A stretch of DNA of 64,000 nucleotides from an uncultured Pseudomonadota bacterium (GTDB lineage Bacteria > Pseudomonadota > Gammaproteobacteria > Steroidobacterales > Steroidobacteraceae): assembly GCA_903884105.1 (NCBI GenBank), contig CAISDJ010000113.1, forward strand, positions 1 through 64,000. The letters run 5' to 3'. A program made the translations under genes and the position numbers. The first letter of the stretch is position 1. The number at the start of each line of letters is the position of its first letter. A model generated the notes under the pieces. That model had not been told where the DNA came from and searched no databases. It worked only from the letters and a program-made list of their open reading frames with translations. Below, in pieces: positions 45,129 to 51,233 of the stretch.

Positions 45129-45609
45129 GGGGAGTGTGGAACCGATCCCCTGGCTGGGCCGATCGCATCCATTCACGACAGGCGGCAGCGCGGCTGTCTC
45201 CCTCGGCAGGCGCCCAGGGAGCAAACTCCGCCGCGACCGCGGGATCGTAAGGCCCTTCCTTCACCTCAAGGAACACTGCCCCATCGACCCGGGACACCAA
45301 CGTGTGCCACGTCATCAATGCTGCCTCATACCCCAGTGCGTCCGTGCCCTCGCCCACCTTCCAGCGGGCGACCACGGTCCCCGAATCATCGAAGGTCAGG
45401 ATGTCGAATCGGCCTCGTACCACCAAGGTCAGCTCCGACTTCGTCCGGTGCCGGTGTGGCCTGAAGTAGGTGTCCCGGTCGGCCGCGACGAAGAACCTCT
45501 GCAGCAAGTCCGACGGAGCCTCGTGCAGGTTGAGGTGGGCACGTTTGCGGGGAGACGCCGTCGCCTTCGCCGCGAGGTCGTCAAGAACTGCCTGGGAGAG
45601 AAGCTTCAT
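45121..45609 (-). CDS. WbuC-family cupin protein
   Basis: 162 residues. Cupin motifs: RDTYFRPHRHRTKSELTLVVRG (metal His-x-His and Glu) and ALMTWHTLVS in the second block, followed by VFLEVKEGPYDP, which is diagnostic for WbuC. WbuC occurs in O-antigen loci and is presumed to act on sugars, but its reaction is unknown. Here it is alone, overlapping the GGDEF-EAL gene by 8 bases and away from the glycan genes at 26-30.7 kb. Confidence 0.82.
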   Translation of the reverse strand: MKLLSQAVLDDLAAKATASPRKRAHLNLHEAPSDLLQRFFVAADRDTYFRPHRHRTKSELTLVVRGRFDILTFDDSGTVVARWKVGEGTDALGYEAALMTWHTLVSRVDGAVFLEVKEGPYDPAVAAEFAPWAPAEGDSRAAACREWMRSAQPGDRFHTPLR

Positions 45610-45763
45610 GCGTTCACTATACTCAGGACGATGCCCCCGTTACTTCTGCACTTGGCAAAATGGGGTCGGGCTGCCCCGCCAGCTTGAGAACGGTGGCGGT
45701 TCCGGGAAGGCAACCTCGAGCTGCGAGTGGACCACTCTGCCTCCCACGCGCTACTCTGCGTGG

Positions 45764-46270
45764 GTGTACTACGACAGCCCCGAACTTCAGGACTTCGTAC
45801 GGTGGCTCGCCGCCACGACACCCAGCATCTGGCTGCGGGCGGTGAGCTCCTCCGTCCCGGTACTGCTTGTCTCCGTGCAGACGGTGCACTTGCTTGGCAT
45901 GTCAGTCGTGATTGCCGCGAACGGCTTCGTCGCGATCGGATTGCTCGGGGGTCTGCGGTCTCATGACGCGCTGGCGAGCCTCACCCGGAAGGTCATACCG
46001 TGGGTAGGCACGGCATTGGCACTGATGCTGGTCACGGGAATCATGCTGATAGTGCGGTGGCCACAGCGCATCCTCCTGAGCCCCGCATTCGTGCCGAAGC
46101 TTGTATTGGTGGTTTGCGGAACGGCGCTCCTCTTCTATATCGAAAGGGCCACGAACAGGCAGCAAGACGGACTGAAGGTGAGGACGCCTGCGGCGATGGC
46201 TCTCGCGATTCTGCTGGTGCTGACGTGGACCGCTGCCGTGATCGCCGGCCGCTGGATTCCGTTCGCATGA
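45764..46270 (+). CDS. DUF6644-like four-helix membrane protein, copy 1
   Basis: 168 residues from a GTG at 45764 (VYYDSPELQDFVRWLA). Frames further upstream are not supported. Four membrane helices are visible, the first after SSSVPVLLVSVQTVHLLGMS with a conserved His, and the pattern matches DUF6644, a family of unknown function. The stop overlaps the next gene by ATGA, so the pair is translationally coupled. The ribosome-binding site for the GTG is weak. Confidence 0.62.
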   Translation: MYYDSPELQDFVRWLAATTPSIWLRAVSSSVPVLLVSVQTVHLLGMSVVIAANGFVAIGLLGGLRSHDALASLTRKVIPWVGTALALMLVTGIMLIVRWPQRILLSPAFVPKLVLVVCGTALLFYIERATNRQQDGLKVRTPAAMALAILLVLTWTAAVIAGRWIPFA

Positions 46271-46785
46271 GTCCCGCGGAACTGGCCCAAGCGTTGCGAG
46301 CAATGCAGGAATGGCCGCTCGTACATGCCATCGGGGGAAATGCCTACGCCTTTCCACTCCTCGACGCCGCCCACATCCTGTTCCAGGCATTCGTGGTTGG
46401 ATCGATTGCGGCACTTGATCTCAGGCTGCTCGGCTATGCACTGATGCAGCGGCCCGTCACCGAACTCGTGCGTCACATTCTGCCCTGGACGTGGGCAGCC
46501 TTTGCCGGTGCCGCCGTGACAGGAATGGTGCTGTTCGTCCTGAATGTCACGACGTTCGTGGACAACCGCTCGTTCCTGATCAAGATGCTATTGATGCTGC
46601 TGGCAGGCGCGAACATGCTGGCGTTCCACAAGGGTGCCTACCGCACCATCGGAGAATGGGATCTGGGGTCTCCACCGCCGCAAGCCGCAAGGCTCGCGGG
46701 CGCGCTGTCGCTGGCGCTATGGCTGGGCGTGGTGTTCTTCGGCCGCTACCTGTGGTATCCGTGGTCGAACAGGGTCGGGTTCTAG
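46267..46785 (+). CDS. DUF6644-like four-helix membrane protein, copy 2
   Basis: 172 residues. MSPAELAQALRAMQEWPLVH leads into PLLDAAHILFQAFVVGS with a His in the first helix, in the same position as in the upstream paralogue, then three further helices (HILPWTWAAFAGAAVTGMVL, FLIKMLLMLLAGANMLAF, LSLALWLGVVFFGRYLW). It shares ATGA with the upstream gene. Paired His in first helices of both proteins suggests a haem or metal contact, by inference only. The next gene, a hybrid kinase, starts 180 bases downstream. Confidence 0.65.
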   Translation: MSPAELAQALRAMQEWPLVHAIGGNAYAFPLLDAAHILFQAFVVGSIAALDLRLLGYALMQRPVTELVRHILPWTWAAFAGAAVTGMVLFVLNVTTFVDNRSFLIKMLLMLLAGANMLAFHKGAYRTIGEWDLGSPPPQAARLAGALSLALWLGVVFFGRYLWYPWSNRVGF

Positions 46786-46965: not shown

Positions 46966-49098
46966 ATGAGCGAAGCTGATCTGCAAGAGAGAGACTGGAG
47001 CGAGCGCATGCTCGCGCAGGTCTCCAGGATTCACCGCCAGACGATCGCCGACGGCTTACCCAGCAAACCGTTCTATGCGGTCCTCAATGCGCTACTCGAG
47101 TTGACGGGCAGCGAATTCGGATTTGTCAGCGAGGTGCTGCGCGACGAACTTTCCAATCCTTATCTCAAGACATTCGCGGCGACCGACATCGGCTGGGATG
47201 ATGCGAGTCGCGCATATTACGCCGAGCGAATCGAGACGGGCCTTGAGTTTCGCAACCTCAACACCCTGTTCGGCCATGCACTGCTGACGGGGGAGCTGTT
47301 TATTACGAATGCCCCCTCTAGCCACCGGGCCAGCGGCGGCACCCCGGCAGGGCATCCGCCATTGATGTCTTTTGCGGCCATTCCGATCAAGGCAGGTGGC
47401 GAACTCATCGGGATGTGCGGCCTCGCAAACCGACCCGGCGGGTTCCCCGCCGAGTTCGACCAACGACTGAAGCCGTTGCTCGATGCGACCGCACTCATGG
47501 TAGGCAGCGCCCGGGTCGGGCGCGATCTTGCAAAAGTCCGGAGCGAAGTCAGTCAGCAGGCTCTCCTGCGCGAGATGTTGATTGCGAATGCGAGCGAAGG
47601 CGTCATCGCGGTAGATGGCTCCGGGCGCATCGTGGAATTCAATCCGGCCGCCACCAAGCTGTTCGGCTGGCCGCGGGAATCGGCTATTGGCGTCCGCGCG
47701 AGCGATCTGCTGTCGCCCCCGGAAGATCATGAGGCATACGCCAGTATCTTCAGCGGTACCGAACTCCTGGACGCTCCTGTGGAGCTGCAATCGCAACGAC
47801 TCGACGGTACGCGCTGTGATATCGAGATTTCGGTGATGCGTTGCCCGCCCGGGGAATCCGCCGCGCATATCGCGTTCATCAGGGACGTCTCTGAGAGACG
47901 CGAGGCGAGGCGGGAGCTCGAGCGGGCGCACGCGCTGGTAGAGGAGTCGAGCCGCGCCAAAATGTCGTTTCTCGCGATTGCGAGCCATGAAATCCGCACT
48001 CCCCTCACCACCATCATGAGTGCAATCGAGTTGATCGATTTGAGCCAACTCAGTGAGGCGGACAGGGAATATCTGTCGGCAGCACGCACGGCGAGCGCCT
48101 CGCTACTGGATCTGGTCAATAACGTTCTGGACGTCACGCGATTCGAAACCGGAGGTAGAGGCCTGGCAAACGCCAACTTTCAACCGCGAGCCATGCTCGA
48201 GGAAGTTGAACGGCAATTCCGGTTCGACGCATGGAGCGAGAACCTGACGCTGCGCATGGTGATTGACAGCGACCTGCCAGCAGCAATCAACGGCGACCGG
48301 GACCGCCTGCGCCGCGTCCTGGTCAACCTGGTGAGCAATGCCCTCAAGTTCACCGAGTGTGGTGGCATCACCATTTACTGTCGCTCCCGCCCGGCAGGCG
48401 TCGACTGCGTGCGTCTCGAGTTCGAGGTTCACGACACGGGGATTGGCGTTCCCGCAGACTTCAAGGAGAAGATTTTCCAGAGCTTCGCACAGGCAGACAC
48501 ATCGCTGACAAGGGCTAACGGTGGTGCTGGCCTCGGCCTGTCGATCTGCCGGCAGCTGGTGAACACGATGGGCGGAGAAATTGAACTGAAATCTTCGTCC
48601 CGCGAAGGCAGCGTACTTGCATTCTACGTAGTCATGAACCGAATGCTGCCGGTAGCCACGGCGGGCGATTCTCCTCGATCCATCGTCACAACAGACGCCT
48701 CGCGGACCCTGCCACAGCGAAGCAAAGTCGTGCTGATCGCAGAGGACAATCTCCTTAATCAGAAGCTGCTGTGCCGGCAATTGGAACGTGCCGGATACGA
48801 GACCGTCACGGCGCCGAACGGCAAAGCGGCCCTCAACGTCCTGCTGACAGGGGGCATTGCCGCGGCAGTCATGGATCTGCAAATGCCGCAGCTCAACGGC
48901 AGCGAAGTCGTACGCCTCTGGCGCGAGCATGAGATCACGTTGCGGCTGGCACGGATCCCCATCGTAATGCTGACAGGCCATGCACCAGAGGAATTCCGGA
49001 TGCTGTCGCTCGCATCAGGTGCGGATGCCTTCCTTACCAAGCCTTACCGATCGGAAGATCTGCTCAGCGCTCTGCGCGGCACGCTGAGCGCACCCTGA
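46966..49098 (+). CDS. Hybrid sensor histidine kinase (GAF-PAS-HisKA-HATPase-REC)
   Basis: 710 residues, no signal or membrane segment, so cytosolic. A GAF domain (about 35-180, SFAAIPIKAGGELIGMCGLA) precedes a PAS domain (205-310, GVIAVDGSGRIVEFNPAATKLFGW), HisKA with phosphorylatable His341 (FLAIASHEIRTPL), HATPase_c (NLVSNALKF, DTGIGVP, GAGLGLSICRQL) and a receiver domain (AEDNLLNQK; phosphoacceptor Asp637 in MDLQMP). All active sites are intact. It is followed by a winged-helix gene, a response regulator and a DHp-like protein, probably a single signalling locus. Confidence 0.9.
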   Translation: MSEADLQERDWSERMLAQVSRIHRQTIADGLPSKPFYAVLNALLELTGSEFGFVSEVLRDELSNPYLKTFAATDIGWDDASRAYYAERIETGLEFRNLNTLFGHALLTGELFITNAPSSHRASGGTPAGHPPLMSFAAIPIKAGGELIGMCGLANRPGGFPAEFDQRLKPLLDATALMVGSARVGRDLAKVRSEVSQQALLREMLIANASEGVIAVDGSGRIVEFNPAATKLFGWPRESAIGVRASDLLSPPEDHEAYASIFSGTELLDAPVELQSQRLDGTRCDIEISVMRCPPGESAAHIAFIRDVSERREARRELERAHALVEESSRAKMSFLAIASHEIRTPLTTIMSAIELIDLSQLSEADREYLSAARTASASLLDLVNNVLDVTRFETGGRGLANANFQPRAMLEEVERQFRFDAWSENLTLRMVIDSDLPAAINGDRDRLRRVLVNLVSNALKFTECGGITIYCRSRPAGVDCVRLEFEVHDTGIGVPADFKEKIFQSFAQADTSLTRANGGAGLGLSICRQLVNTMGGEIELKSSSREGSVLAFYVVMNRMLPVATAGDSPRSIVTTDASRTLPQRSKVVLIAEDNLLNQKLLCRQLERAGYETVTAPNGKAALNVLLTGGIAAAVMDLQMPQLNGSEVVRLWREHEITLRLARIPIVMLTGHAPEEFRMLSLASGADAFLTKPYRSEDLLSALRGTLSAP

Positions 49099-49111
49099 CT
49101 GCAGGACTGGA

Positions 49112-49123
49112 CAAATTGCATCC
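49112..49123 (+). promoter_or_regulatory. 12-base motif upstream of the winged-helix gene
   Basis: CAAATTGCATCC, identical to 46820-46831, about 100 bases before the TTG at 49213. It sits inside a second inverted pair CTGGA (49107-49111) / TCCAG (49126-49130). Confidence 0.4.
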
Positions 49124-49212
49124 ATTCCAGTGGCATCTCGAGATCAGATCCGCCTCCATTGCTGTAGAGTCTTTTCGCTTTTCGAATATTGGGCGACAGG
49201 CTGGAGGAGCAA

Positions 49213-49494
49213 TTGGAAACAAGCATCCCTGCAATGCGAGGTATCGCTTCAGATGCGGATGATTCGAGTCCGACCCAGCGACTCAGCGACGGGATTTCAC
49301 CAGTCCTGAAGATACTCGAAACCATCCAGAGCGGCGGCCCGATGAGTATCAGCCTGCTCTCACTCAGAACCAGACTCCCCCTGCCCTCGCTCATCCGCTC
49401 CCTGAACAAGCTGGAGCGAATGGGGTTTGTCAAGATTGATCCGGATAGCATGCTTTTTTCCGTGGGCAATCCCTTGAAGAAGGCGTCCTTTTAG
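49213..49494 (+). CDS. Small stand-alone winged-helix protein
   Basis: About 93 residues from a TTG at 49213 with GGAGG 5 bases upstream; an earlier TTG at 49189 and an ATG at 49234 are alternatives. The domain GISPVLKILETIQSGGPMSI...SLLSLRTRLPLPSLIRSLNK...LERMGFVKID resembles the IclR-type winged helix, which would bind DNA. There is no ligand or receiver domain. It sits between the hybrid kinase and a response regulator; with a shared 12-base motif upstream, it is a candidate regulator of this locus or a phosphorylation-independent output. Confidence 0.6.
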   Translation: METSIPAMRGIASDADDSSPTQRLSDGISPVLKILETIQSGGPMSISLLSLRTRLPLPSLIRSLNKLERMGFVKIDPDSMLFSVGNPLKKASF

Positions 49495-49575
49495 GCTCAA
49501 ATGCCGTCGCGCCGTGCGTCCCTAGGCTTGACCCGCTGTTGAGCAGGGGCCTGAGCACCCCGTTCCTGACGGCAG

Positions 49576-50424
49576 ATGAATCAGCCCAACATTCTCATAG
49601 TCGATGACGATCCACTTTCATTGCGCGTGTACAGCAGGATGCTGGCCAGCGCAGGACTGTTCCCCGCTTGTTCGAACTCTCCGGGGGAAGCCATCTCGAT
49701 GCTCGGGTCGCTGCCTGCCGTCGATGTCGTCCTCACCGACCTCAATATGCCGGATCTCGGGGGCCTCGAACTGATCGAGCTGGCTCGCAGCCAGCACAGC
49801 GATCGGCCCTGGCTGAAGTTCATCGTCGTGACTGGTGCTGCGACAACCGAATCGGCGGTCCAGGCGCTGCGTCTCCAAGCCTCGGATTACATACACAAGC
49901 CGGCGACAAAGCTGCAGCTGGTCGATTCAGTAAACCGGGCCCTCAAGGCGGCAACAGCCCTTCGCTCCTCGCGTCTGCCGCGGGAGTCCGCAGGCAAGCC
50001 GACATCGGGAGTTCATCACGCGCTCACTGGGCCCCACCTCACGCAGGGGACCGCCGACTCCAGGTCACTCCTGCGCAACATGCTCTCTCACAAACTGGCC
50101 GCCCAGTCGCTGGACCGGGAGATACTTGGCGAAGGACTTTCATTGGGGCCGGCGTGGGAGATGATGCTGGAGTTGATGAATGCGCACCTTCAGGCTCGCC
50201 GCATCTCGGTGACCGCGCTTTGCCTGGCAACGCCCGTCCCGATGACGACGGCACTGCGTCGTGTCGGCGAGCTGGTCGACACTGGCCTGGTTGTGAGGGT
50301 GCCGGACCCGAGCGACTCCCGCAGGGCGTTCGTCGAGTTCACGGAGATTGGCCAGGCGAAGGTCGAAGAGTACCTTCTGGCACTGGCCGCCAGAATCCAT
50401 TTTCCTCCATCGGGCTCGCAGTGA
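49576..50424 (+). CDS. Response regulator with MarR-like winged-helix output
   Basis: 282 residues. The receiver domain spans 1-120: ILIVDDDPLSLRVYS acidic pair, phosphoacceptor Asp55 in LTDLNMPDLGG, Thr in VVTGAA, Lys in DYIHKP. A 60-residue linker leads to a winged helix (about 175-275) with EMMLELMNAHLQARRISV, TALRRVGELVDTGLV and the MarR-like wing PDPSDSRRAFVEFTEIG. MarR-type outputs on response regulators are uncommon. The hybrid kinase upstream is the likely phosphodonor. GTGA overlap couples it to the next gene. Confidence 0.83.
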   Translation: MNQPNILIVDDDPLSLRVYSRMLASAGLFPACSNSPGEAISMLGSLPAVDVVLTDLNMPDLGGLELIELARSQHSDRPWLKFIVVTGAATTESAVQALRLQASDYIHKPATKLQLVDSVNRALKAATALRSSRLPRESAGKPTSGVHHALTGPHLTQGTADSRSLLRNMLSHKLAAQSLDREILGEGLSLGPAWEMMLELMNAHLQARRISVTALCLATPVPMTTALRRVGELVDTGLVVRVPDPSDSRRAFVEFTEIGQAKVEEYLLALAARIHFPPSGSQ

Positions 50425-50654
50425 ATACACCACCCGACCTCGAGAGCCTGGTCCATGCACTCAACGGTCGGCTGGGCGTTATAATCGGAAACCTCGAGCT
50501 TCTCCTGACACCAGGCACGCTTGCAAATGAGGAAATGGCGTGCGCGGATGATGCCTGGCAGGCGGCCTGTCAGGCGGCTGAGCTGATCAAAAGCATCAGG
50601 CAGCTCGCACCCGTGAACCCCGTGGTGCAGTCAGCGGACTCCTCCCGTAGCTGA
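50421..50654 (+). CDS. Tiny DHp-only (histidine kinase dimerisation) protein
   Basis: 77 residues from a GTG that overlaps the response-regulator stop (GTGA). Residues 8-30 read ESLVHALNGRLGVIIGN, similar to the H-D-F-N-N...GNLELL helix of PAS-associated histidine kinases, with His12 and Asn15 kept. A second helix (ACQAAELIKSIRQL) completes a two-helix hairpin. There is no ATPase domain, so it cannot phosphorylate itself; it could act as a phosphotransfer, phosphatase-type or kinase-inhibiting partner. Coupling with the response regulator is strong evidence of a shared function. Confidence 0.6.
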   Translation: MNTPPDLESLVHALNGRLGVIIGNLELLLTPGTLANEEMACADDAWQAACQAAELIKSIRQLAPVNPVVQSADSSRS

Positions 50655-50729: not shown

Positions 50730-51233
50730 ATGCCGCCTGGAAACTGGTTTCCATTGATGAACGGCTTTGTGGTCCACAACGTGACCGGTGAGATCGTGAT
50801 CTGGAGTTCGAGCGTTGAACACATCTTGTGCCTCAGCCTCGACCAGATGCGCGGCCGCACGTCGATCGACCCCGGCAGGCGGGCAATCCACGAGGACCGC
50901 ACGCCGACCTGAATCTCCATCAGCACGATTCCCCTGGTGGATCCGGCAACGGGGCAACCTCACGGCGGCGTCGCTGAATTCCACGACCTGACCGAACGCA
51001 GGCACGACGAGGCCCTTCTCAAGACCTCGACCGCCGAACTCGCGGACGCGGTGGCAGAACTGCTGAATCTCAGCAAGGTCGCACGGGGCGTCCTCGCAGG
51101 GCTCGGCCAACTCAACCCGAGAACCGTCACGACCAGCTTCCAGGCGGGCATTCGCTCAGGAGTTCCCGGGTACCAGCAGCGGCCGGCCCGCCGCTGGCGA
51201 CGGGCGCAGCAGGATCAGAACCGGAACGTGTAG
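50730..51233 (+). pseudogene. Broken PAS-domain gene
   Basis: One frame reads through a PAS domain: MNGFVVHNVTGEIVIWSSS, GRTSIDPGRRAIHEDRTPT, then an in-frame TGA at 50910-50912, and continues ISISTIPLVDPATGQPHGG and VAEFHDLTERRHDEALL. The TGA occupies the place of the Trp in the usual W-I-S-I-N motif, and about 30 residues normally found between HEDGTP and WIS are missing. A coiled linker (TSTAELADAVAELLNLSKVARG) follows with no output domain before the DUF5916 gene's 3' end. Readable PAS sequence with a stop and a deletion means a pseudogene. Confidence 0.65.

Follow-up and report, generated by a model that had tools for sequence, protein, structure and literature searches.

A candidate three-gene phosphorelay in Steroidobacteraceae in which a DHp-only miniprotein may take the place of an HPt protein

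We have identified a candidate phosphorelay locus in an uncultured gammaproteobacterium of the family Steroidobacteraceae, within a stretch of 64,000 nucleotides (the window) that covers positions 1 to 64,000 of contig CAISDJ010000113.1 (assembly GCA_903884105.1; contig of 130,744 bases, genome of 3.7 Mb in 144 contigs). Judged from the sequence, the conserved core of the locus is a three-gene phosphorelay made up of a cytosolic hybrid histidine kinase, a response regulator with a MarR-like output and a 77-residue miniprotein that consists of a DHp hairpin only. The genes and their domains, the intact catalytic residues, a gene order that is kept in another genus and a distribution complementary to that of HPt proteins can all be read directly from the sequences compared here. 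We consider it likely that the miniprotein is the step of the relay in which phosphate passes from the kinase receiver to the regulator.

The first-pass annotation had proposed four open reading frames here, and all four were recovered on the forward strand with the coding pattern GC3 >= GC1 > GC2: the kinase (710 aa, 46966-49098), a small winged-helix protein (49189 or 49213 to 49494), the regulator (282 aa, 49576-50424) and the miniprotein (GTG start, 50421-50654), whose start overlaps the regulator TGA by 4 nt (GTGA). The order of kinase, regulator and miniprotein is not unique to this genome. In G320, which belongs to another genus of the same family (G- and L-numbers denote genomes and loci of relatives, g-numbers genera), a kinase 46% identical to that of the window over its full length is followed by a regulator and then by a 66-residue miniprotein. 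The pair of regulator and miniprotein recurs in six further genomes (G320, G028, G267, G367, G700 and G703, the last on a contig that begins inside the regulator), is spread over four genera (g1, g4, g19 and g21), and is usually spaced by -4 to +12 nt. Additionally, in G174 a MarR-type protein without a receiver precedes a miniprotein that is cut by the contig end.

The miniprotein is not a chance open reading frame, since six other genomes have a homologue of it behind this regulator, and one of these homologues (G267) passes the Pfam cut-off for HisKA. It could still be a decaying kinase fragment retained by chance, and the low identity that the miniproteins share (only 20-30% to that of the window) and a degraded PAS remnant just downstream would suit such an origin. 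This is scarcely credible, given the same position behind the same regulator in four genera, the invariant histidine, asparagine and leucine residues described below, and nucleotide differences that rank 3 > 1 > 2 by codon position in all four pairs compared.

The miniproteins are 63-82 residues long and comprise the hairpin alone. The window sequence VHALNGRLGVIIGNLELL is an H-box, in which the proposed relay histidine is His12 (HALNGRLGVIIGNLELL; codon 50454-50456, forward strand), and His12, Asn15 and Leu18 are invariant in the alignment of eight miniproteins. An AlphaFold model (pLDDT 83.6) is a hairpin with helices at residues 7-29 and 38-62 and His12 in helix 1; presumably the protein forms a homodimeric four-helix bundle. 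HisKA (PF00512, cut-off 26.9 bits) is matched by six of the eight at E <= 0.1, most clearly in G267 (30.5 bits, E 3.9e-7) and weakly in the window (13.7 bits, E 0.064), and three of the eight weakly match SPOB_a, the helical domain of Spo0B. In Pfam, no miniprotein matches HATPase or Hpt (PF01627), the window protein stopping at residue 77, before an ATPase domain could begin; a search of PDB sequences with the miniprotein profile also gave no match.

Stand-alone HisKA proteins as such are already known, since a 2013 survey found 1,556 of 42,417 HisKA proteins (3.66%) to be without HATPase and suggested that they are split kinases (PMC3591291). Under such a scheme the ATPase domain of a kinase would phosphorylate the miniprotein directly in trans, and the residue that follows the histidine, which is acidic in seven of the eight miniproteins, is in keeping with this. 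The surveyed proteins resemble ours in having a stand-alone HisKA-type domain, but a partner ATPase was proposed for them, whereas the miniprotein locus has an intact hybrid kinase and an HPt slot, which points to a relay. A split kinase is very unlikely here: the window miniprotein has lost the acidic residue in favour of alanine (HALN), the same operon includes a complete kinase with a DHp domain of its own in the window, G320 and G700, and none of the loci showed an orphan ATPase protein.

The miniprotein appears, by its sequence, to resemble the HDxN H-box class of other kinases in the family. We rejected its derivation by duplication of the neighbouring kinase DHp domain, since the miniprotein profile does not match those kinases; a decoy derived from the neighbouring kinase is unlikely on the same grounds, the kinase H-box being of the SHEIRTPL type. 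The mismatch also bears on the possibility that the miniprotein is an inhibitor or adaptor that binds the kinase DHp bundle, as Sda does on KinA, and makes no use of its histidine. Small helical hairpins encoded with a kinase have precedents of this kind in Sda and KipI (PMC12189002), but the miniproteins persist without an adjacent kinase in G367 and G267 and their histidine is invariant, and we regard this role as quite unlikely.

The complementary pattern of miniproteins and HPt proteins is the strongest argument that the miniprotein fills an HPt position. Ten relatives of the regulator that lack a miniprotein adjoin an HPt domain, above the Pfam cut-off in every case: seven have a free HPt protein of 122-150 aa that is divergently encoded (L034, L038, L272, L273, L278, L279 and L280), and three adjoin a divergent hybrid kinase that ends in an HPt domain (the first regulator of L030, L274 and L275). 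None of seven miniprotein loci has an HPt in the corresponding slot. Fisher's exact test gives p = 0.003 for this exclusion but overstates independence, because the HPt-linked regulators form one clade in the regulator tree (100/100), with the miniprotein-linked ones outside it, so that the events are few. An HPt protein is usually a monomeric bundle, and the miniprotein, which shares its genomic slot, differs from it in being a two-helix hairpin without an HPt profile match. As an HPt stands beside ten miniprotein-less relatives and in that slot at none of the miniprotein loci, the miniprotein appears to replace HPt. We lean slightly towards the broader view that a family of DHp-only phosphotransferases of 63-82 residues, which arose from HDxN-class kinases rather than from the kinase beside it, occupies the position of HPt in this lineage of phosphorelays.

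This mutual exclusion would be left unexplained if the miniprotein were a phosphatase or phosphate sink that drains Asp55 of the regulator or speeds its hydrolysis, damping the response while the kinase acts directly on the regulator. DHp domains are able to dephosphorylate receivers, the miniprotein histidine is invariant, and the coupling of miniprotein and regulator is the most constant feature of the loci, persisting even without a kinase in cis (G367), all of which would suit such a protein. The residue at +4 from the histidine, which belongs to the HE/DxxN/T phosphatase motif, is not conserved (G, S, A, S, D, D, S and N), which makes a phosphatase role less likely, and overall we hold it to be unlikely.

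Several observations weigh against the relay reading that we prefer, beginning with the single clade of HPt-linked regulators described above. The regulators of G285, G348b and G239 have neither a miniprotein nor an HPt nearby, the window genome has other HPt domains, two of them on short frames, that could serve the regulator, and in G367 an extra receiver is lacking within about 5 kb. The window miniprotein, taken alone, is below the HisKA cut-off and has alanine in place of Asp/Glu after the histidine. Finally, Foldseek gave no significant match for the miniprotein (ChpT, 4qpj, was at rank 49 with E 3.0), although the method is uninformative on a two-helix hairpin.

By Pfam, the kinase comprises GAF_2 (residues 38-174), PAS (about 204-313), HisKA (332-396), HATPase_c (443-555) and a C-terminal REC domain (589-703), with the H, N and G boxes and the receiver aspartate intact, and is thus a hybrid kinase; no transmembrane segment was noted in it. 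Its phospho-acceptors, His341 in the H-box SHEIRTPL (codon 47986-47988) and Asp637 in the receiver (codon 48874-48876), are invariant in the kinase alignment. The regulator has a REC domain (6-119, Pfam Response_reg), a linker and a MarR-like winged helix (about 190-273), whose MarR_2 match of 24.0 bits is below the Pfam cut-off of 27; the AlphaFold model shows the REC domain, a helix-turn-helix, a two-strand wing and flanking helices. Receiver residues D10, D11, D55, T86 and K108 are invariant in the alignment of its relatives, with the phospho-acceptor Asp55 encoded at 49738-49740 (all codons on the forward strand).

The window kinase has a receiver but, in a Pfam scan of the protein, no HPt domain, so that a relay would need a histidine phosphotransferase; a relay through such a protein in turn requires an intermediate receiver. 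Most miniproteins are accompanied by an extra receiver, which is fused to the kinase in the window and in G320. In G267 a free 131-aa receiver adjoins the regulator and is 44% identical to the G320 kinase receiver, versus 26-29% to the two regulator receivers tested. The order in G700 is a kinase without a receiver, a free receiver, the regulator and the miniprotein, and in G028 a free receiver lies between the two regulators. We suggest that the kinase would phosphorylate its own His341 and transfer the phosphoryl group to its receiver at Asp637, from which the miniprotein would take it onto His12 and hand it on to Asp55; the MarR-like winged helix of the phosphorylated regulator would then change its DNA binding. 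We infer each of these transfers, as well as the DNA binding and the dimerization of the miniprotein. The first-pass annotation had raised the possibility that the small protein relays phosphate, which is supported by the kept gene order, by the invariance of the histidine and by the way in which miniproteins and HPt proteins complement each other in distribution.

In the Bacillus sporulation phosphorelay, the histidine-bearing helical hairpin of Spo0B links a receiver (Spo0F) to a DNA-binding response regulator (Spo0A), the position that the miniprotein would have in our relay, and the free receiver, regulator and miniprotein of G267 and G700 repeat the Spo0F/Spo0A/Spo0B layout, to which the weak SPOB_a matches can be added. 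Spo0B retains a degenerate ATPase-like domain, whereas the miniprotein stops after the hairpin; the miniprotein also occurs in a different bacterial group, is linked to a MarR-like output and is encoded directly behind the regulator. The histidine phosphotransferases Spo0B, ChpT and PhyT are considered to be kinase-derived, and the structure of ChpT comprises a DHp hairpin and an ATPase-like domain (PMC3433190, PMC9981736, PMC5898713, PMC6136694). The CckA-ChpT-CtrA pathway shares with our locus a receiver-bearing hybrid kinase, a DHp-type phosphotransferase (in our locus a putative one) and a regulator (PMC9981736, PMC3433190), but ChpT carries an ATPase-like domain at its C terminus and acts on two regulators, whereas the miniprotein has a single domain and lies in a kinase-regulator locus. 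PhyT/PhyP of the alphaproteobacterial general stress response is likewise thought to be kinase-derived and passes phosphate that it receives from a single-domain receiver on to a regulator (PMC5898713), but it is a membrane protein of the HRxxN class with a sensor and a degenerate ATPase domain. No miniprotein has the layout of DHp plus degenerate ATPase-like domain that these proteins share. By analogy, the miniprotein would work like Spo0B or ChpT, minus the degenerate ATPase domain. We found no description in the open-access literature of a stand-alone DHp relay protein, or of one that takes the place of HPt in a defined relay.

The small winged-helix protein encoded between kinase and regulator probably starts at TTG 49213, behind GGAGGAG, and has 93 aa (101 aa if it starts at TTG 49189). 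It matches HTH_24 (28.0 bits) and HTH_IclR (23.7 bits, cut-off 22), both above the Pfam cut-off, but at 93-101 aa it is without the C-terminal effector-binding domain of IclR. Among 217 genomes of the family, the proteins nearest to it are IclR-type regulators (30-38% identity), and neither an ortholog nor a comparable locus was found in this set; the G320 locus has no such protein between kinase and regulator. Thus, we rule it out as part of the conserved system and regard it as a lineage-specific neighbour outside the conserved module. The earlier idea that two unrelated winged-helix outputs act as a single-locus system fails on the same grounds.

The searches covered 396 genomes from the order, 274 from the class and 299 from the phylum, with overlap between the sets (about 1,000 genomes in all). 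Outside the family, the matches listed included no regulator-linked miniprotein and, for the class and phylum sets, no stand-alone miniprotein. Other matches to the miniprotein profile were nearly all DHp domains of long kinases, plus a weak short frame with stops in G631. A scan of genome contigs with the regulator alignment mostly matched other receivers; the one distant full-length relative of the regulator, in Reyranella (L118), has an ordinary membrane kinase after it and no miniprotein.

Genus g16 encodes H-box proteins of about 90 aa (IHDLGNWLGVVVGQLELLG; LHDAGNWLGVVVGQLELLG in G016) at L104 (1734-2015), L106 (5295-5558), L105 and L102. In the two loci checked, L104 and L106, they lie tail-to-tail with a receiver-bearing hybrid kinase that lacks an HPt, and have no Pfam match and no MarR-type regulator nearby; they were left out of the miniprotein counts. 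Regulators of the same architecture in genus g13 (L032 6376-7290, L033 6690-7604, L035 4096-4968 and L036 6256-7116) have receivers with changes such as VDSD at the acidic pocket, and adjoin large genes resembling TonB-dependent receptors, with no kinase, HPt or miniprotein in the stretches read. A protein with HD-phosphodiesterase-like motifs (DTPYHDxQHS, ALFHDxGYLRR) occurs near MarR-type regulators in two genera (L030 9335-10348 and L040 4571-5761); for the copy in L030, Pfam gave no match at E 0.01. Three g21 genomes have a gene near the regulator that by eye resembles a PQQ-type dehydrogenase of about 715 aa (L029 7909-10074, L031 38-2182 and L101 8241-10376).

In the window, short forward-strand frames resembling degraded PAS/PAC sequence (VTGEIVIWSSSVEHILCLSLDQMRG; VDPATGQPHGGVAEFHDLTERRHDEALL) lie 3' of the miniprotein at 50730-51110 and are probably a pseudogene of another signalling protein. 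The window encodes two small membrane proteins (DUF6644-like) directly 5' of the kinase (45575-46785, forward strand), and in G367 such a pair, there also DUF2214-like, lies directly 3' of the regulator and miniprotein (L101 3848-4889, reverse strand). It is possible that this pair is a target or an input of the relay. An Rfam search of the locus gave no match, and a scan for promoters and terminators gave results at chance level.

If our reading is right, these loci hold a DHp-type relay protein that retains nothing of an ATPase domain, and HPt and DHp hairpins have been exchanged naturally in otherwise homologous pathways. A natural hairpin that acts alone would show that the DHp bundle suffices by itself, which bears on whether the ATPase domain is needed for partner recognition. 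Additionally, the family provides a comparison set of homologous regulators that would be fed by an HPt or by a DHp hairpin, with the intermediate receiver either fused to the kinase or free. Thus, it becomes testable how a relay can swap its phosphotransfer fold while keeping specificity for two receivers.

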